Assembly (NCBI RefSeq): GCF_000744655.1
Contig: NZ_JQMJ01000004.1
Location: forward strand, 3,472,001 to 3,536,000
DNA from: Streptacidiphilus rugosus AM-16
Lineage (GTDB): Bacteria; Actinomycetota; Actinomycetes; Streptomycetales; Streptomycetaceae
DNA length: 64,000 bases
Reading direction: 5' to 3'
This document shows, one piece after another, positions 19,375 to 28,069 of the stretch (position 1 is the stretch's first letter; each line of letters starts with the position of its first letter). Under the pieces are notes generated by a model. The model ran no database searches. It was given only the letters and a program-made list of their open reading frames with translations, and was not told the origin of the DNA. A program made the translations under genes and the position numbers.

Positions 19375-19482
19375 CCGCACATGCGAGAGGCCCCGGACCG
19401 TTTGTGCTGGTCCGGGGCCTCTCGGCTTCCACGTGGCGGGTGCAGGGTTCGAACCTGCGTAGCTTGCGCGACAGATTTACAG
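19375..19482. repeat. Left attachment repeat (tRNA-Tyr 3' fragment + terminator)
   Basis: Identical over 108 bp to 24946-25053. It includes the tRNA terminator hairpin (16-bp stem, 19384-19399/19409-19424) and the tRNA-Tyr 3' half to the anticodon loop. Beyond 19482 the sequence differs, so the anticodon stem cannot form and this copy is not a working tRNA. Confidence 0.93.
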
Positions 19483-19601
19483 ACCGCGCGCCGAACCATG
19501 CCTGACCTGCCGTGACGCCCAAGCCCGGCCGGGCGGCCCCACACATGCCCCACCGCGAACGTCGGCTATCCCCGGTTGGGCGTGTGGGGCACGATTCGGT
19601 C

Positions 19602-20294: not shown

Positions 20295-20905
20295 GAGCGC
20301 CTCCGTCCACCCTGGCCTGTGAGCAAGTGCGACGCCCAACTGGGTATCGGTTGCAGCCGGAGCCCGCAACGGGGCAGGACCTGTCTACCGCGAGCACGGT
20401 GAGGCGGCAGTCTGATCATTGCCGCGCTGCCGCGCTGTGATGACTTTCTCTACTGAATCAAGACGACCACGCCGCGCCATGCGCGGCGCGGCCCGCCCCG
20501 CCGCTCGGGCCCGCTCTCGTCTTCGCCGCCGCGTGCCCGGCGGCAGGCGGCCCGCCGCACAACGACGAGCCACACCAGTGCAAACCCCCACAAGGGGCGG
20601 TCGCTGCGCGATCAACAGCCTTTTCGCAGAGCGGACGCGGGGACCGCCGAGAGTCCAGCCAGCCAGTGGCGACGCCCACGGTCACGAGGACGGTCACGAC
20701 TCAGGACCGGGGCGGCAGCAGTGCGCCGGCCAACCGCAGATCATGGCTCCGCCCCAAACCCCGGCCCTCCTCGGAGGGGCCACGCTCCGCAGAGAGCTGC
20801 GGGTGGTGGTGGGTTGGGATTGGGGGGGTCGTGGGGTGCGGCGGAGCAGCCGAGGGCGACAAGCTATGTTGCCCGCTGAGACGGATGCCCCGGAGGGGGG
20901 ACTAC
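20295..20905. other. 611-bp island interval without a supportable gene
   Basis: Several short frames exist on both strands but none has convincing codon bias plus a ribosome site. A 7-bp palindrome, GCCGCGC-cat-GCGCGGC, is at 20471-20487. The interval is probably eroded DNA of the island. Confidence 0.5.
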
Positions 20906-21202
20906 ATGGAACAGCGGGTGATTGCGCACTTCACCCTTGGCGGTGCTGGCTTCGGAGACCCGGAACAGCGCAAGACCATGTTCGAGGCCGAGAAGCGCCT
21001 CCGCGCGTTGGTTGCAGAGGCGAGTGTCGGCGCAGTCGATGGCAACGAGTACGGCGGTGGCAGGGTCGCGCTCTATGCGTACGGCGCCGACGCGGATGCT
21101 TTGTTCGCAGCGATGGAGACTGAGTTGCGCGCAGTGCCCTTCCGGCCTGCGCACGTGTATGTCGTCTACAGTGACGACTCTTCAAGGCGTGTGGATCTCT
21201 AG
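20906..21202 (+). CDS. Hypothetical protein, island gene
   Basis: 98 residues after a near-perfect GGAGGGGGGACTAC ribosome site. It starts MEQRVIAHFTLGGAGFGDPEQRKTM and contains GAVDGNEYGGGRVALYAYGADADALFAAM. The strand-helix alternation suggests a small alpha/beta (ferredoxin-like) fold similar in plan to small immunity proteins. I do not recognise the family. No membrane segment or cysteine. Confidence 0.7.
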   Translation: MEQRVIAHFTLGGAGFGDPEQRKTMFEAEKRLRALVAEASVGAVDGNEYGGGRVALYAYGADADALFAAMETELRAVPFRPAHVYVVYSDDSSRRVDL

Positions 21203-21577
21203 CCATGGGCGTGCGCGGCGTGCCACTGGCGTGCCAGATTGGTCGGGATGGGGCGGGGACTCCCGGGGACTCGCGGGAGAAGCGCGACCGTTGCCGCAGT
21301 TCGCAGAAGCGCAGATTGGCCTAGGTTACCTAGACGGAGCCTCCTAAAGCCGGTGTCACAAGGAGCGGTAGAGTGCCGCAACCACATCGCTTACGGGACG
21401 GCTGGACGTACATACCCTCTTCGTCGATCGCCTGATTCCACTGGCGGTCGCCGGTCTCATCTGGCGCTTGGTGATCCAACCGCCGCTTGATCGCTGGGCA
21501 GCCCCCAAGATCGCCAGACAGCAGGAGCGAGTCCGAGCCCGCCGAGCGGAACGGAAGCGGTAACCCACTCGCGCAGT
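21203..21577. other. 375-bp island interval, no confident gene; one integrase-arm-like site
   Basis: Contains GTGCCA-N5-GTGCCAGA at 21220-21238, which recurs near the right attachment repeat. A frame open from 21372 to 21563 encodes a hydrophobic segment (LIPLAVAGLIWRLV) and a basic tail but has no usable in-frame start at its head, so it may be a gene fragment cut off upstream. Confidence 0.5.
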
Positions 21578-21594
21578 GGCGCGCTGAGCAATAG

Positions 21595-22038
21595 TCAAGA
21601 GTTGTGGGTGGGGCCTTCCGACGCGGTGATCTCGGCTGCCGCGAGCCGGGCGTCCTCACGCACTCGCGGGTCGGGGTGGTGGAGGAACGGCTCGATCAGC
21701 AGCCGGGCCCGCGGGTCGTGGGTGGCGCCGAGGATGTAGAGGGCGTGTTCGAGGAGCTCGGACTCCATTGTCGGCATGGCGATCGCCAGCGGTTCGACGA
21801 GGTCCAGGGGCAGGCGGTGGTGGTTGAAGGCCTCGCTGATGGAGTTCAGGGCGGACTCGCGGACCTTGGTCTCCGGTTCGTTGAAGGCCAGGCTGATCAG
21901 GCGTCCGACGACGAGGTGGGCGGTGTCCGTGTCGAGCGCGGTGTCGCGCAGGAGGTCCCCGAGTGTGTCGGCTGCGGCATCCCGACGGTTCGGATCGCGG
22001 TCGGTCAGCGCTTCAAGCGCCGTGATCATGTCGCTCAT
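21595..22038 (-). CDS. HEAT-repeat protein, passenger of the IS256-family element
   Basis: 147 residues from an ATG that overlaps the transposase stop (ATGA). About four HEAT-like helical pairs can be read, each with the D/E-P-x-x-x-R-x-x-A pattern: TDRDPNRRDAAADTLGDLL, NEPETKVRESALNSISEAF, a middle one around ESELLEHALYILGA, and HPDPRVREDARLAAAEI. There are no catalytic motifs, so it is probably a protein- or nucleic-acid-binding scaffold. Coupling to the transposase suggests a role in transposition control, target choice or stability; this is inference. Its last codons form part of the left inverted repeat. Confidence 0.85.
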   Translation of the reverse strand: MSDMITALEALTDRDPNRRDAAADTLGDLLRDTALDTDTAHLVVGRLISLAFNEPETKVRESALNSISEAFNHHRLPLDLVEPLAIAMPTMESELLEHALYILGATHDPRARLLIEPFLHHPDPRVREDARLAAAEITASEGPTHNS

Positions 22039-23285
22039 GCTGCCACCTCGGACCGCTCGACCAGGACGCCGTTCTCGAAGCGAGCGCCGGCGCGGACCAG
22101 GGACACCAGGTGAGCTCCGGTGATCGCGCGCCATCGCGCCTGAGCGGACTCGACCAGCTTGAACACCATCGCCAGCGCCGCCGCCGGGCTGCCCGCACCG
22201 CGGGTGACCTTGGTGCGGAGTTTGACCGTGGAGAAGGTCGACTCGATGGGGTTCGTGGTCCGCAGGTGGATCCAGTGCTCGGCCGGGAAGTCGTAGAACG
22301 CGAGGAGCTCGTCCCGGTCGTCGGTGATCTTCGCGACAGCCTTCGGGAACTTGGCCCCGTAGGCCTTCGCGAACGCCTCGATCGCTTTCTCGGCATGGCC
22401 GCGGTCCTCGGCGTTGTAGATCTCCTGCATCGCCTTCACAGCCCCAGGCTGTGCGGACTTGGGCAGGCAGTTGGTGACGTTGCGGGATTTGTGAACCCAG
22501 CACCTCTGCGGCCTCGCCGCCGGGAACACCTCGGCCAGCGCCCGCCAAAGGCCCATCGCGCCGTCGCCGACCACCAGCTCGGGGTCGCGCATGCCCCGTC
22601 GGCGGCAGTCGCACAGCAGGTCGGCCCACGACTCGGTCGACTCCCGCAGGCCCTCGGCCAGCGCGATGAGCTCCTTCGTGCCGTCCAGGCGGACGCCGAG
22701 CAGGACCAGGACACACGAATGGGCCTGCCCGAGTCGGACCTTCGGGTGCACGCCGTCGGCCCAGACGTAGACGAAGTCGCGATCGGACAGGTCCCGGGCC
22801 TGGAAGGCGGCGTGGTCCTCGCTCCACTGCTTCGTCAGCCGGGTCACGGTCGCGGCCGACAGGCCGGCGGTGCCGCCGAGGAACTGCTCCAGCGCGGGCA
22901 CGAAGTCCCCGGACGACAGTCCGTGCAGGTAGAGCAGCGGCAGCACCTCGGAGATTTTCGGTGACTTGCGGCACCACGGCGCCAGGATCTTCGAGGAGAA
23001 CCGCTTGCGCTCGCCGGTGGCGTCGTCGACGCGGCGGTCGTTCACCCGCGGGGCCTTCACCTCGACCGGTCCGGCGGCGGTGACCACGGTGCGGGGCCGG
23101 TGGTGGCCGTTGCGGACGACCAGGCGACGCCCATGCTCGTCGGTCTCGGCGGTCAACTCGGCTATGTACTGGTTGACTTCCGCTTCCAGCGCGGCGGCCA
23201 GCATCCTGCGGGCGCCCTCGCGGACGATCTCGTCGATCAGGGAGCCGGACTGGGTGGAGCCGTCGTCGGTGACTACGCTGAGCAC
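22035..23285 (-). CDS. IS256 family (mutator-type) transposase
   Basis: 416 residues, full length. The DDE catalytic residues are visible: Asp in VYVWADGVHPKV, Asp in LVVGDGAMGLW and Glu in TTNPIESTFSTVKLRTK. The family's C-x2-H region is present as RCWVHKSRNVTNCLPK. Both inverted repeats and the reading frame are intact, so the element looks competent. The gene ends in an ATGA overlap with the HEAT-repeat gene. The start is ATG at 23285, giving an N-terminus with STQSGSLIDEIVREGARRML. Confidence 0.95.
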   Translation of the reverse strand: MLSVVTDDGSTQSGSLIDEIVREGARRMLAAALEAEVNQYIAELTAETDEHGRRLVVRNGHHRPRTVVTAAGPVEVKAPRVNDRRVDDATGERKRFSSKILAPWCRKSPKISEVLPLLYLHGLSSGDFVPALEQFLGGTAGLSAATVTRLTKQWSEDHAAFQARDLSDRDFVYVWADGVHPKVRLGQAHSCVLVLLGVRLDGTKELIALAEGLRESTESWADLLCDCRRRGMRDPELVVGDGAMGLWRALAEVFPAARPQRCWVHKSRNVTNCLPKSAQPGAVKAMQEIYNAEDRGHAEKAIEAFAKAYGAKFPKAVAKITDDRDELLAFYDFPAEHWIHLRTTNPIESTFSTVKLRTKVTRGAGSPAAALAMVFKLVESAQARWRAITGAHLVSLVRAGARFENGVLVERSEVAA

Positions 23286-23497
23286 GGGCGTGCCTTCCCG
23301 ACCCGCGCTGCAACGCGGGCCTACTCGGAGACCATCAAAGGATCATTCGGGAAGGTACGCCTTCCGCGTGCCTGCCGGCACTGATCCACAGGTCTCCAGC
23401 ATTGCTCGGCGCGCTCCACCTGGACATCAGGGGGGCGAGAGCGGACTGTAAAGCCGCCCCCTCTGGGGGCTAAACTCCCGCCGGATAGGGAGGCGCC

Positions 23498-23773
23498 ATG
23501 TCGGCATGGATCATGTTGGTCGTCGGCTGCACGTTCATCGTTGGTGGCGTCTCTGTCCTCAATGGCTGGCGAGCGGCGACATACTCAGACAAGCGCCTAA
23601 GTGGCTGGGGCAACATCGCGGTGGGGGCGGGCTTCACGCTGGATGGCTTGCCAAAGATCGTTGGATCATCCGACGCCGTTGGCCTGCTCTTTGCCATCGC
23701 TGGGCTTGCCCTCATCGTCGTGGGCGTTGTGCTTGGTGCCCGCGACTTGCGGCGCCGGCGGGGCAACGCCTGA
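23498..23773 (+). CDS. Small membrane protein, island gene
   Basis: 91 residues with ATAGGGAGGCGCC before the ATG. Three hydrophobic segments: WIMLVVGCTFIVGGVSVL, GNIAVGAGFTLDGLPKIV (weak) and VGLLFAIAGLALIVVGVVLGA. The end is strongly basic (RDLRRRRGNA), predicting a cytoplasmic C-terminus. No recognised family. It is the first gene to the right of the IS and is preceded by a tRNA-anticodon-arm-like sequence. Confidence 0.7.
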   Translation: MSAWIMLVVGCTFIVGGVSVLNGWRAATYSDKRLSGWGNIAVGAGFTLDGLPKIVGSSDAVGLLFAIAGLALIVVGVVLGARDLRRRRGNA

Positions 23774-23951
23774 GACCGTGCCCGCTGCGTGCCCGTCACG
23801 AAGGCAATGGGTGGCACATAGCGGTAACTGGCGGTCATCCCCTTGAGACTGTGCAGGTCAACGCCGTCGCACGTCAGTCCACATCCGGCATAGAGTCTTC
23901 CCAAGCTCAGAGCCTTTGCCTCCCGGAGACTCAGTCTGATCGGATCGGTTG

Positions 23952-24173
23952 ATGGACGCTTATTCAGGCGACTACTCGGAGGTCACGCCAGCCCTCAGGG
24001 AGTACGCCGCCCAGTTCGCAGGGGCGATCGCCGAGGTTCGTGCCGAGCATTCGGGCAAGGACTACGACATCGTGCGCGAGGCCCTGGCCGTCCGTCTGAG
24101 GTCCGTTGGTATCGCACCAGTGCCTCAGGTCCTTGACGACCTCTCCCGCCAGATCCACGCCGGCGAGCGCTGA
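23952..24173 (+). CDS. Small helical hypothetical protein, island gene
   Basis: 73 residues from ATG 23952 (a TTG one codon earlier is also possible). Mostly helical and amphipathic: EVTPALREYAAQFAGAIAEVRAEHSGKDYDIVREALAVRLRSVGI, ending in QVLDDLSRQIHAGER. No signal peptide or catalytic motif. The pattern resembles small DNA- or partner-binding proteins of plasmid-derived elements, but I cannot name a family. The ribosome site is weak. Confidence 0.5.
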   Translation: MDAYSGDYSEVTPALREYAAQFAGAIAEVRAEHSGKDYDIVREALAVRLRSVGIAPVPQVLDDLSRQIHAGER

Positions 24174-24478
24174 CTGTTGCGGCTACGCCAATGTCAGCGT
24201 GCGGGGGTCACGCCCTCAGGCCGTGAGGCTTCCAGCAAGATCCGGACCAGGCACGGACCAGAGCCCCGCACGTGTCAGGCGCAAGACGACCTCGTGCAGG
24301 TCAGGGCGCTTGACCCACCGATTTGCGGAGCGGCCTGTAAATCCGCCGCATAGAGACCCCGCCCGGCCCGGCTCGAACTCGGCTGGTCCCCTCCACAACG
24401 GGCCGGGCTTGGGGGTCTCCAGCAGCCGGCCGACGCGGGTAAGCACGACTATATGAGGCGGTTCGGGAGCCAGGGAGG
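24174..24478. other. 305-bp island interval with a tRNA-like fragment
   Basis: GAGCGGCCTGTAAATCCGCC (24329-24348) resembles the anticodon arm of tRNA-Tyr and is followed some 25 bp later by GGCTCGAACTCGG, a T-arm-like sequence. The rest shows no convincing gene; a minus-strand frame at 24216-24506 lacks support. Confidence 0.4.
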
Positions 24479-24871
24479 TCAGTTCTGCCCCGCAGCCTGC
24501 TCCCAAGCCGCCAAGTCGTTCCTGTCCCCCACGAAGGCCGCCCTACAGCCAGGGGGCAGGTGCTCCACGACGAGGGCCGCCGCTGCCTGAGCGGAGTCCG
24601 CTGGCCCTACCGCTTCAATCCGGGACGGCCCTGCGACAAGGAAGCCACCACCCTTCATAGGGGCGATGTAGGGCACGTCTCAGGTACAGGGATGCTGGGT
24701 GCAACGGCTGAAGTGCAGCTCCCACATCCCGACCCAGGGGAAGAGCTGCCGCAGTCGCGGTTGCTCGTAGGCCGCCCGGACCATCAACGGGTCCACCCTG
24801 TCCTCGGCCGTCAGCAGTCGTTGCCACTCAGCTTCTACTACGTCGGCGCCGTGGCCGAGCTCTTCGCTCAT
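24479..24871 (-). pseudogene. DUF6193-like gene interrupted by an in-frame TGA
   Basis: Two minus-strand halves lie in one frame, separated only by TGA at 24680-24682. The first half starts MSEELGHGADVVEAEWQRLL and ends LRQLFPWVGMWELHFSRCT plus QHPCT. The second continues DVPYIAPMKGGGFLVAGPSR and ends VVEHLPPGCRAAFVGDRNDL. Together they read as one protein of about 129 residues resembling, from memory, the DUF6193 family of actinomycetes. The TGA sits where an aromatic residue, probably Trp (TGG), would be expected, so a single nonsense change fits. The second half also has its own GTG (24676), so a split product is possible but unlikely. Confidence 0.6.
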
Positions 24872-24945
24872 GGCAGAAGTCTGCCGTGCCATTCGCGTGC
24901 CAGACAGACCGGGGAACGGCGGGGAGCTACGGGGTAGAGCGGGGA

Positions 24946-25053
24946 CCGCACATGCGAGAGGCCCCGGACCGTTTGTGCTGGTCCGGGGCCTCTCGGCTTC
25001 CACGTGGCGGGTGCAGGGTTCGAACCTGCGTAGCTTGCGCGACAGATTTACAG
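24946..25053. repeat. Right attachment repeat
   Basis: Identical to 19375-19482. It covers the tRNA-Tyr 3' half from the anticodon loop (25053) outward through the terminator hairpin (24955-24970/24980-24995). Identity ends exactly in the anticodon loop, where crossovers of SLP1-like elements occur. Confidence 0.93.
24955..24995 (-). terminator. tRNA-Tyr terminator hairpin
   Basis: 16-bp perfect stem around a 9-nt loop, immediately 3' of the tRNA on the minus strand. It is duplicated in the left attachment repeat. Confidence 0.8.
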
Positions 25054-25085
25054 TCTGCTCCCTTTGGCCGCTCGGGCAACCCGCC
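25005..25085 (-). tRNA. tRNA-Tyr (anticodon GUA)
   Basis: Acceptor stem GGCGGGT/ACCCGCC closes perfectly. The anticodon stem-loop is CAGA-CTGTAAA-TCTG with GTA at 25051-25049. A long class II variable arm and the T-arm CAGGTTCGAACCCTG follow. CCA is not encoded. It serves as the integration site of the island on its 3' side, and the 3' half is restored by the repeat, so the gene stays functional. Confidence 0.97.
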
Positions 25086-25259
25086 AGGGATGGTGTCTCG
25101 CGGTCTCCCGCTCGACGTCGTAAACCATACCCGATGGTGGGGGGTGCTTCGCCACTCGGTTGATCAGTGTGGGGGCGGGCATGAGGCCGAGTGGGTGGCT
25201 AGGCTGGTTCGGCCGCCGTTCCCGGGCGGGAACCGAATCACCAAGGAGACTCAACGATC

Positions 25260-25748
25260 ATGGCCGACTCCAGTTTCGACATCGTTTCGAAGGTCGAGCG
25301 GCAGGAGGTCGACAACGCGCTCAACCAGACCGGCCGCGAGATCGCCACGCGCTTCGACTTCAAGAACGTCGGCGCCTCCATCGAGTGGTCCGGCGACAAG
25401 ATCGAGATGCGGGCCAACGGCGAGGAGCGGGTCAAGGCCATCCTCGACGTGTTCCAGGGCAAGCTGGTCAAGCGTGGCATCTCGCTGAAGTCGCTCGACG
25501 CCGGTGAGCCGCAGCTGTCGGGCAAGGAGTACAAGATCTTCGCGACGATCGAGGAGGGCATCTCCCAGGAGAACGCCAAGAAGGTCTCGAAGATCATCCG
25601 CGACGAGGGCCCCAAGGGCGTCAAGGCCCAGGTGCAGGGTGACGAGCTCCGCGTGACGTCGAAGAGCCGCGACGACCTGCAGGCCGTCCAGGCGCTGCTC
25701 AAGGGCAAGGACCTGGACTTCGCGATCCAGTTCGTGAACTACCGCTAG
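25260..25748 (+). CDS. yajQ: YajQ family protein (nucleotide-binding, UPF0234)
   Basis: 162 residues, full-length Yaj[21 protein letters not shown] at the N-terminus, [18 protein letters not shown], then [27 protein letters not shown] and the C-terminal [16 protein letters not shown]. It has two ferredoxin-like folds. Some bacterial members bind cyclic di-GMP; the actinobacterial role is not settled. The ribosome site is AAGGAGACTC. Its position beside tRNA-Tyr matches the gene order around the SLP1 site in S. coelicolor. Confidence 0.95.
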
Positions 25749-25792
25749 ACCCCCACGCTGACCTGCGGAAACGCATGGTCCGAGCGACCTCG

Positions 25793-25845
25793 GGGCACAA
25801 CGGGGGCCCGGCGGACACCGACTCCGCCGGGCCCTCGTTGTGCCC
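25793..25845 (+). terminator. Terminator after yajQ
   Basis: Inverted repeat of 23 bp with one mismatch (25793-25815 and 25823-25845) around a 7-nt loop, about 45 bp after the yajQ stop. Confidence 0.8.
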
Positions 25846-25870
25846 GTGTCGTTCCGCCACTGGGAAGCCC

Positions 25871-25901
25871 TTGCACCTCCAGCGGCTGGAGGTCGCAGAC
25901 T
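25871..25901 (+). promoter_or_regulatory. MerR-type promoter/operator with 19-bp spacer
   Basis: TTGCAC (25871-25876) and CAGACT (25896-25901) are separated by 19 bp, the elongated spacing typical of MerR-activated promoters. The palindrome ACCTCCAG-CGG-CTGGAGGT (25875-25893) lies within the spacer. The predicted start falls at or next to the ATG at 25909, so the mRNA is probably leaderless. Confidence 0.75.
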
Positions 25902-25908
25902 CGGACCC

Positions 25909-26865
25909 ATGGACGGCACACACGCGGCAGCGTCGCCGCTGCTGAGCATCGGCGACCTCGCCCGCCGGACCGGGCTGCCGGTACGCACGATCCGGTACTG
26001 GTCCGAGACCGGCGTGGTGCCCGAGGCGACGCGCAGCGCGGGCGGGCACCGGCTCTACGACGCGGCCGGCGTGGCCCGACTGGAGCTGGTGGCCACGCTG
26101 CGGGAGCTCGGGCTGAGCCATGCCGAGGTCCACCGCGTGCTGAACCGCGAGAGCACCGTGGCCGAGGTGGCGGCGATCCATGTGCGGGCGCTCGACGCCC
26201 AGATCGCCACGCTGCGGCTGCGCCGGGCCGTGCTGTCCGCCGTCGCCGCAGGGGACCGGGAGGAGCCAGGACACATGGATCGTCTGAACCGTTTGGCACG
26301 GATGTCGGCACAGGAGCGGCAGCAGACCATCGACGACTTCGCAGCCGAGGCCTGCGCGGGCTTGGAGGCCGAGCCGCAGCTGCGGGACCGGCTCAGGGAG
26401 CGGTTGCGCGGCGGAGGCCACCGGCTGCCGGACGCCCCGACCCAGGATCAGCTGGACGCCTGGCTGGAGCTGTCCGAGCTGATGCAGGATCAGGAGTTCC
26501 GGCGGCTGGCGCGGCGCGCCGTCGAACGGAGTTCCGAGCCTGACCGGCATCGCTTCTTCAGCCAGAATCTCGACCGGACCGTCGGAGCGGCGATGCGCGA
26601 GGGGGTCGAGCCGGATTCGGCGCGGGCGGCGGCCGTCGTCGACGAGTTGCTCGACCGCCCCGGCCCGGATCGTCGCAGGGCCGTCCGCGACCGGCTCCGG
26701 GCCCAGCTGGACGCGGGCCCCGACGTCCGCCTGGAGCGCTACCGGCACCTGCTGGCGGTCATGCAGGGCCGGCAGCCCCCGTCTACCCGCAGTGCTCTGT
26801 ACGCGTGGCTGGCCGACGCCATCGACGCGGGGGCGGCGGGGGCCGGTCCCCGGTCCGACGGGTGA
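25909..26865 (+). CDS. MerR family transcriptional regulator
   Basis: 318 residues. The N-terminal MerR winged helix is clear: LLSIGDLARRTGLPVRTIRYWSETGVVPEATRSAGGHRLY, about 12-51. A dimerisation helix follows (SHAEVHRVLNRESTVAEVAAIHVRALDAQI). The long C-terminal part is helical (DDFAAEACAGLEAEPQLRDRLRERL ...) and larger than in metal-sensing MerR proteins, suggesting a small-molecule or stress sensor. No ribosome site precedes the ATG, and the upstream MerR-type promoter places the transcript start at the start codon. Autoregulation through the spacer palindrome is likely. Confidence 0.88.
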   Translation: MDGTHAAASPLLSIGDLARRTGLPVRTIRYWSETGVVPEATRSAGGHRLYDAAGVARLELVATLRELGLSHAEVHRVLNRESTVAEVAAIHVRALDAQIATLRLRRAVLSAVAAGDREEPGHMDRLNRLARMSAQERQQTIDDFAAEACAGLEAEPQLRDRLRERLRGGGHRLPDAPTQDQLDAWLELSELMQDQEFRRLARRAVERSSEPDRHRFFSQNLDRTVGAAMREGVEPDSARAAAVVDELLDRPGPDRRRAVRDRLRAQLDAGPDVRLERYRHLLAVMQGRQPPSTRSALYAWLADAIDAGAAGAGPRSDG

Positions 26866-26908
26866 CACCGGCCGACGCCGTACGCGCCGGCGGTGCGAGA
26901 CTGTGCCG

Positions 26909-27451
26909 GTGAAGCCCACCGCAGAGCAGCTCGCCGCCGCGCAGGACCGCACCATCGAGGACGTCATCGGGCCGGATCTGCGGGTGCTGTTCTGCGGGAT
27001 CAATCCGGGGCTCTGGTCGGGGGCGACGGGGCATCACTTCGCCCGGCCCGGCAACAGGTTCTGGCCGGCGCTGCACCGCGGCGGGTTCACCCCGCGGCAG
27101 CTGGCGCCGGAGGAGCAGGGCGAGCTGCTCGGGCTCGGCCTCGGGATCACCAACGTCGTCGCCCGGACGACCGCGAAGGCCGACGAGCTCAGCGCCGAGG
27201 AGTACCGCGTCGGCGGCAAGGCGCTCGTCGCGCGCGTGGAGCGGTGGCGGCCGCGGACGCTCGCCGTCCTCGGGATCGGGGCGTACCGGACCGCGTTCGG
27301 GCGGCCCAGGGCCGCCGTGGGGCGGCAGGAGGAGGGACTGGGCGGCACGGAGGTGTGGGTGCTGCCCAATCCCAGCGGGCTCAACGCCCACTACACGCCG
27401 GACGGAATCGCGGCGGAGTTCCGCCGACTGAGGGACGCCGTCGGCGACTGA
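26909..27451 (+). CDS. mug: G/U mismatch-specific DNA glycosylase (Mug/TDG family)
   Basis: 180 residues from GTG 26909; GTG 26903, two codons earlier, is also possible. Family motifs are visible: FCGINPGLWSGATGHHFARPGNRFWPAL at about 32-59 and VLPNPSGLNAHYT near the C-terminus, which correspond to the catalytic GINPG and the intercalating NPSGLN loops. It removes uracil and related bases mispaired with G, starting base-excision repair. The length is normal for Mug. It follows the MerR gene by 43 bp without obvious coupling. Confidence 0.92.
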   Translation: MKPTAEQLAAAQDRTIEDVIGPDLRVLFCGINPGLWSGATGHHFARPGNRFWPALHRGGFTPRQLAPEEQGELLGLGLGITNVVARTTAKADELSAEEYRVGGKALVARVERWRPRTLAVLGIGAYRTAFGRPRAAVGRQEEGLGGTEVWVLPNPSGLNAHYTPDGIAAEFRRLRDAVGD

Positions 27452-27536
27452 GGCGACGACCGAGGCGAACCGGCGGCGCCGGACGGTTGCCGGCCGCCGG
27501 TTGCCGGCCGCCGGACGCAGCCGCCCGCCGCCCGCG

Positions 27537-27938
27537 TCACCAGCCGGCGAAGCGCTCGTCGGTCGAGACGATCTCGCGCCCCAGCGGCATCAGCGAGATC
27601 GGGATCATCTTGAGGTTGGCCCAGGCGAAGGGCAGCCCGATGATCGTCACGGCCAGCGCGATGCTGGTCGCCAGATGGCCCAGGGCCAGCCACCAGCCGG
27701 CGAAGATCAGCCAGATCACGTTGCCCGCACAGGAGGCCGCACCGGCGTCCTGGCGCTCGCGGGTCATCCGGCCGAAGGGCCAGAGCACGTAGCCCGCGAT
27801 CCGGAACGAGGCGATGGCCCACGGGATGGTGATGATCAGGATGAAGCAGATGATCCCCGCGACGGCATAGGCGATCGCCATCCAGAGGCCGCAGAGCAGA
27901 AGCCAGAGCACGTTGAGGACGAGGTTGATGACCTTCAC
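27537..27938 (-). CDS. YccF domain membrane protein
   Basis: 133 residues from GTG 27938, giving the usual start (M)KVINLVLNVLWLLLCGLWMA. Two YccF repeats, each a hydrophobic helix pair followed by a FAWANLKMIPISLMPLGRE-type or AIASFRIAGYVLWPFGR-type segment. Integral membrane protein of unknown function. The longer in-frame extension to 28007 is Arg/Lys-rich and unlikely to be translated. Confidence 0.85.
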   Translation of the reverse strand: MKVINLVLNVLWLLLCGLWMAIAYAVAGIICFILIITIPWAIASFRIAGYVLWPFGRMTRERQDAGAASCAGNVIWLIFAGWWLALGHLATSIALAVTIIGLPFAWANLKMIPISLMPLGREIVSTDERFAGW

Positions 27939-28069
27939 GCGTGAGTCCCGTCTCTTCCGAAGTCCTTTGAAGTCCCGACGTTCGTTCCTACCTTCGGAGT
28001 CTGCCACGGTGGGCGCACCCCCGCCCGGGGGCCGTGGGCTGGACCGATGGCGCGGCCCCCACCGGCACG

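Follow-up and report, generated by a model that had tools for sequence, protein, structure and literature searches.

The IS256 family of insertion sequences (IS) is characterized by a common transposase family, terminal inverted repeats, and target duplications of 8-9 bp. It corresponds to p-MULT 1 in the survey of Guerillot et al. 2014 (PMC3942029); the accessible text of that survey describes 109 IS256-type elements, all of them plain ISs with 8-9 bp duplications. Insertion sequences that carry passenger genes are known as tIS. According to the accessible part of PMC7986276, such members occur in several IS families; the one example given there belongs to the IS6 family. The ISAzba1 and ISKra4 groups, as outlined in PMC3942029, have Mutator-related transposases and extra genes in some elements, which resembles the case described here; however, they are other transposase families. 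Composite transposons of the IS256 family, such as Tn4001 (named in PMC7986276), consist of two IS copies around a gene. In the titles and abstract openings listed by searches of the open literature, no report of cargo-carrying IS256 elements was evident; ISfinder and the subscription papers lay outside this scope, and some of these elements may already be catalogued.

The element analyzed here lies in a window of 64,000 nucleotides from Streptacidiphilus rugosus AM-16, the window being the whole stretch of DNA examined. The features of the element are listed in Table 1. Its transposase scores 296 bits with the NCBIfam IS256 model NF033543 (cut-off 150), and only 42.6 bits with the ISKra4 model (cut-off 205). 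The ISKra4 group is set apart by this model score, and the ISAzba1 group by its description. The family-model transposase, the terminal inverted repeats, and a duplication within the 8-9 bp range are all present, as in the IS256 family. In contrast to a plain IS, which has a transposase gene alone, and to the 109 plain elements in the accessible text of PMC3942029, the window element has a second gene within its ends. A passenger gene within the ends of a one-transposase IS is the arrangement of the tIS. The described tIS example is from the IS6 family, whereas the present set consists of numerous related IS256-type elements that carry many types of cargo and include possible capture intermediates. 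Cargo-carrying IS256 elements would be a new form of the already known tIS type. The window element is not a composite transposon, since it contains a single transposase and a single pair of ends rather than two complete flanking ISs. The two copies around a gene in Tn4001 represent a possible starting state, of which the present clade keeps at most a remnant of the second copy.

Table 1. Features of the IS256-type element and its target site (window positions).
Feature	Position	Strand	Remarks
IS256-type element, complete	21586-23407	genes on (-)	
Target duplication, left copy, 8 bp	21578..21585	.	GGCGCGCT
Target duplication, right copy, 8 bp	23408..23415	.	GGCGCGCT
Left terminal inverted repeat (cargo side)	21586..21610	+	GAGCAATAGTCAAGAGTTGTGG; provides the stop codon TGA in the HEAT frame
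HEAT-repeat cargo gene, 147 aa	21595..22038	-	Pfam PF02985, E 9e-9; AlphaFold; fold search
IS256-family (Mutator-type) transposase, 416 aa	22035..23285	-	PF00872, 3e-67; NF033543, 2e-88
Right end, transposase start to tip, 122 bp	23286..23407	.	similarity with L004 through to the tip
Right terminal inverted repeat	23383..23407	-	reverse complement GAGCAATGCTGGAGACCTGTGG

A preliminary description of this DNA had given the 8-bp duplication and both terminal repeats, and these were found again at exactly the same positions. Its assignment of the transposase, which has 416 residues, to the IS256 family was borne out by the matches to PF00872 and NF033543. The coupled HEAT-repeat gene of 147 residues was also recovered: its start overlaps the transposase stop as ATGA, and its stop codon is 9 nt inward from the left tip, within the terminal repeat. 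In one of its frames the left repeat reads TGA, and therefore unrelated cargo genes in the same frame stop there too (e.g. L063, L105, and L119). Similarity to L004, a relative with a different cargo, covers the right end of the window element as far as the tip.

The preliminary description had further placed the HEAT gene inside the mobile unit, and two lines of evidence substantiate this. An independent HEAT element in another genome (L060, at the same place as L026) is 92.6% identical to the window element across both genes. The identity spans from the left tip to 2 bp beyond the right tip, and the flanks are unrelated. L060 has no target duplication of its own. In addition, a fragment on contig C1 of the window's genome (96% DNA identity, 95% for the HEAT protein) starts within 2 bp of the left tip. 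The alternative that HEAT is a host gene adjoining a plain IS, outside the mobile unit, could appeal to the HEAT homologues without a transposase (L040 and L042-L047, 38-44% identical). It is extremely improbable, because the target duplication and the repeats enclose HEAT and the L060 identity covers both genes and stops within 2 bp of the tips. Among the loci read, no element ending between the transposase and HEAT was found. Some relatives lose similarity between the two genes, but they have another gene there, followed by their own left repeat. An empty site was sought by comparing window positions 20700-24300 with the genus; the 13 other genomes gave only short scattered flank matches.

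The HEAT protein scores 35.2 bits with PF02985 (gathering score 23.5). Its AlphaFold model contains 8 helices (pLDDT 91.8), and in Foldseek it is most similar to alpha-Rep and other proteins of the HEAT/armadillo type. Taken from this predicted fold, the product might be a protein-binding scaffold, which may serve the host or nothing essential to transposition. A defence role was considered and rejected, as the PADLOC matches were weak (E 0.0027 and 0.0042). The HEAT search of the family, which is presumably Streptomycetaceae, gave 29 matches in 25 of 394 genomes. A transposase match was found in the available flanks of 16 of these, and none in those of the other 13, including the remotest homologues (the L040 and L042-L047 group). 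No common neighbour of the free homologues was recognized by eye in six regions (L159-L164). The phage records contained no match. Nine of the 72,556 plasmid records matched; three were read, and one (L156) contains the transposase, HEAT, and both repeats, with no target duplication found. The omega values were 0.26-0.58 for HEAT (21 pairs) versus 0.09-0.20 for the transposase (15 pairs). HEAT is kept as a protein, with a looser constraint than that on the transposase.

Close relatives of the transposase (E 1e-100 or better) occur in 79 of 394 genomes of this family, with four candidates scored per genome. The loci read were those from the searches and 40 further stretches, which are a part of all matches. 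The slot survey left out 17 loci, mostly repeat entries of sites already included, and also L002 and L003, which are truncated HEAT copies without a left repeat in the window's genome. The left repeat was recognized in 63 loci and not recognized in 12 further sites (L062, L070, L076, L081, L087, L109, L113, L117, L121, L123, and the truncated L002 and L003). Where present, the nearest left repeat more than 200 nt away was chosen; inner candidates existed only in L102, L119, L120, and L122/L053. In 63/63 loci, there are 338-1457 nt between the left repeat and the point where the transposase match stops; in some loci this match is short. L065 and L086, which have identical flanks, are one insertion, and both are counted in the 63 loci and in the 52 two-ended loci below. 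Nearly all of the 63 slots hold a plausible gene; the HEAT frame of L069 is broken, and L115 is without a convincing gene. Judged by codon composition, the cargo may have either orientation.

The cargo genes are diverse. A Pfam scan of 40 cargo proteins placed 27 above the gathering score of some family, and many of these are mutually unrelated. These 27 comprise 2'-5' RNA ligase, SnoaL and its relatives, glyoxalase, AAA_33, HAD, HAD_SAK, GNAT acetyltransferase (five loci), APH-family phosphotransferase, methyltransferase, SDR, PALP, cytidylate-kinase-like, PNPOx, shikimate-kinase-like, amidohydrolase, and RibD_C proteins. Four proteins match Pfam below the gathering score only, among them HLX (HEAT_2, E 4e-4); a GyrB-like cargo is below the gathering score in Pfam and below the cut-off in NCBIfam. 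The remaining nine are without any match, including the recurrent small types MTVTD, MNEPL, and MDTPN (these three names and HLX are labels coined in this analysis). The HAD_SAK type was also seen to be shared by L118 and L128, which belong to two actinobacterial families and have transposases 81% and 68% identical to that of the window.

Both ends are present in 52 of the 63 loci. A perfect 9-bp duplication was found in 19/52, and 8 of 9 positions agree in 3/52; the other 29, L060 among them, show neither these nor the 8/8 match of the window. The 8-bp duplication of the window is thus an exception in the clade, where the perfect duplications are otherwise 9 bp (19 loci). More than 10 cargo types are enclosed by perfect duplications. 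In addition, three pairs of elements, each pair within one genome and with one cargo at both of its sites (L092/L093, L084/L088, and L095/L096), are 99.8-99.9% identical. Their identity stops at the repeats or within about 20 bp beyond them.

Transposases that are 93-95% identical precede unrelated genes in the same slot. Unrelated cargo beside near-identical transposases would imply that the passenger is dispensable for transposition. Since close relatives hold quite different genes in the same place, the element reads as a one-gene cargo carrier rather than as an IS with a special helper. On this comparison of sequences, it is very probably a cargo-carrying IS256-type IS, or one-gene unit transposon, with HEAT as the present cargo of an exchangeable slot. 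The preliminary description had proposed instead that HEAT is a transposition accessory, a target selector, or a self-limiting factor. Such a dedicated partner of the transposase would be in keeping with the ATGA coupling, with the transposase match beside 16/29 HEAT matches, and with some purifying selection on HEAT. This proposal is very unlikely, because unrelated genes lie behind transposases of up to 95% identity, plain relatives exist without any cargo gene (67-71% identical transposases, see below), the omega of HEAT is looser, and the transposases of the HEAT elements do not form one clade.

The last point comes from approximately unbiased (AU) tests, for which a DNA tree was built from 31 transposases with an identity of 83% or more to that of the window. 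This tree left out the matches below 83% identity or shorter than 320 aa, and also L088 and L122. A single clade was rejected for the seven HEAT elements (p 0.0005) and for the four HLX elements (p 0.004); the result was borderline for MNEPL (p 0.042), and a single clade was not rejected for MTVTD (p 0.317). On the transposase protein tree, which is without L119, L124, and L125 (too short), the fewest-changes count was 38 for 66 labelled rows; with 27 labels it cannot be below 26, and two of the labels, GNAT and SnoaL, denote superfamilies. For these two reasons, the argument for exchange of cargo between transposase lineages rests on the AU tests. Synonymous distances are similar in HEAT and the transposase for most HEAT pairs, so long co-inheritance fits too, which counts against the exchange reading.

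HLX homologues were found in 101/388 genomes. No transposase match accompanies 17 of 30 HLX loci retrieved, and three of these 17 encode proteins 73-80% identical to the IS-borne form. For at least some of the cargo, relatives exist outside the elements. This bears on another explanation, in which the recurrent small types (HEAT, HLX, MTVTD, MNEPL, and MDTPN) would be true element genes, e.g. for persistence or anti-silencing, and the enzymes would be ordinary cargo. These types do recur with several transposases and are often fused to the transposase stop, with an ATGA-type overlap in several loci for HEAT, HLX, and MNEPL. However, HLX has the free relatives just described, and HEAT and HLX could not be treated as one family, as their profiles show no detectable kinship (comparison probability 0.55%). 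The explanation is considered unlikely.

Relatives outside the family were identified by a class-wide transposase search, with matches in 29/394 genomes (E 1e-60). Nine loci (L127-L134 and L137), a part of these matches, were examined: five are plain ISs (L129-L133), three have cargo (L127, L128, and L137), and the ninth is L134. In the plain ISs the transposases are 67-71% identical, and the left tip is 31-33 nt past the transposase stop. A decayed left repeat was found 35-37 nt past the stop in six cargo loci (L119, L102, L085, L120, L092, and L093). These relic inner ends represent five different elements, as L092 and L093 are copies of one, and they have the position of the plain left end. 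When positions were scored for the left repeat, 5/63 cargo elements were above zero at offsets 30-40, versus 1/33290 positions elsewhere in the slots, and this sole position is the real inner repeat of L122. The scoring was done without L119, whose relic at 35 nt came from another scan; the relic of L120 is also at 35 nt. On the transposase protein tree, the relics are divided between two clades; in addition there is L119, which is too short for the tree. No relic inner end was found in the HEAT elements, and hence the capture step of HEAT itself is not visible.

In two loci, remnants of a second copy were found. In L137, a 117-bp second copy of the transposase 3' end (72.7%, E 6.6e-13) is located just inside the outer left repeat, the cargo is between the transposase and this remnant, and the duplication is 9/9. 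This element sits among the plain elements on the transposase tree, which suggests a separate capture. In L122, the 3' end of the inner cargo gene is found again, over 99 bp and with 92% identity, just inside the outer left repeat. An ORF between the inner and outer repeats is presumably phosphatase-like, judging by its motif. L122 is decayed, and a target duplication was sought there and not found. These remnants suggest that the outer left end derives from a second copy; they were seen in these two loci only. A self-comparison of 70 loci detected L137, L122, and L073, and also a 37-bp repeat in L112 that extends outside its element. A remnant search by DNA alignment was discarded: its top loci, L106 (z 5.0) and L116 (z 4.6), were read as GC-rich noise, and L137 and L122 were absent from its list. 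At positions 949-1104 of L073, just outside the left repeat of an MNEPL element, there is a remnant of a transposase 3' end with 67% identity to the window protein, which is perhaps an early capture stage. As a separate observation, the region G012:C1:3472875-3495854 (L051 and L122) contains three transposase relatives and a fragment in about 23 kb, one of them with nested left ends.

A possible course of events can be outlined. The single transposase gene at the right end would mobilize whatever lies between both terminal repeats. Initially, a host gene might have been flanked by a plain IS and, on its other side, by a second copy with the same orientation. The outer copy would then lose its right part, and the transposase would pair its own right end with the outer left end, while the inner left end would decay. 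Later, compaction would bring the cargo up to the transposase stop and the outer repeat, which might lead to its translation by coupling from the transposase mRNA. Cargo is also traded between transposase lineages. We lean towards a capture route in which cargo is taken up between the left ends of neighbouring copies. The chances seem evenly balanced for the wider reading. There, the clade in streptomycetes and other actinobacteria would be a continuing capture engine for single host genes that takes over the outer left end of a neighbouring copy, trims the cargo into a coupled two-gene unit, and trades cargo between lineages, with intermediate stages visible.

The surroundings of the window element contain other features. 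A 113-bp direct repeat (98%), at window positions 19375-19487 and 24946-25058, brackets about 5.5 kb, and the IS lies within. The right copy overlaps a tRNA-Tyr gene (25004-25085). These repeats are probably the attachment sites of an integrated element. Window positions 21696-28014 also match the end of the 100-kb contig C2 of G000 (L195, 2238-8532) with 99.4% identity, 27 gaps, and 4 mismatches, and the left junction of this match is that of the HEAT copy L003 on C1. The match may be due either to recombination through the IS or to an assembly artefact. L005 (G000:C1:384422-384944) is, by eye, a HEAT-element fragment between inverted copies of neighbouring sequence.

The wider family pattern is of more interest than the single case in the window. 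For genome annotation, it is a warning that an IS256-type element may also include the gene that follows its transposase. The relic ends and the second-copy remnants offer a testable account of how an IS becomes a transposon. With relatives in 79/394 genomes and room for a gene in 63/63 loci, single-gene mobility would commonly give rise to variation in these bacteria.
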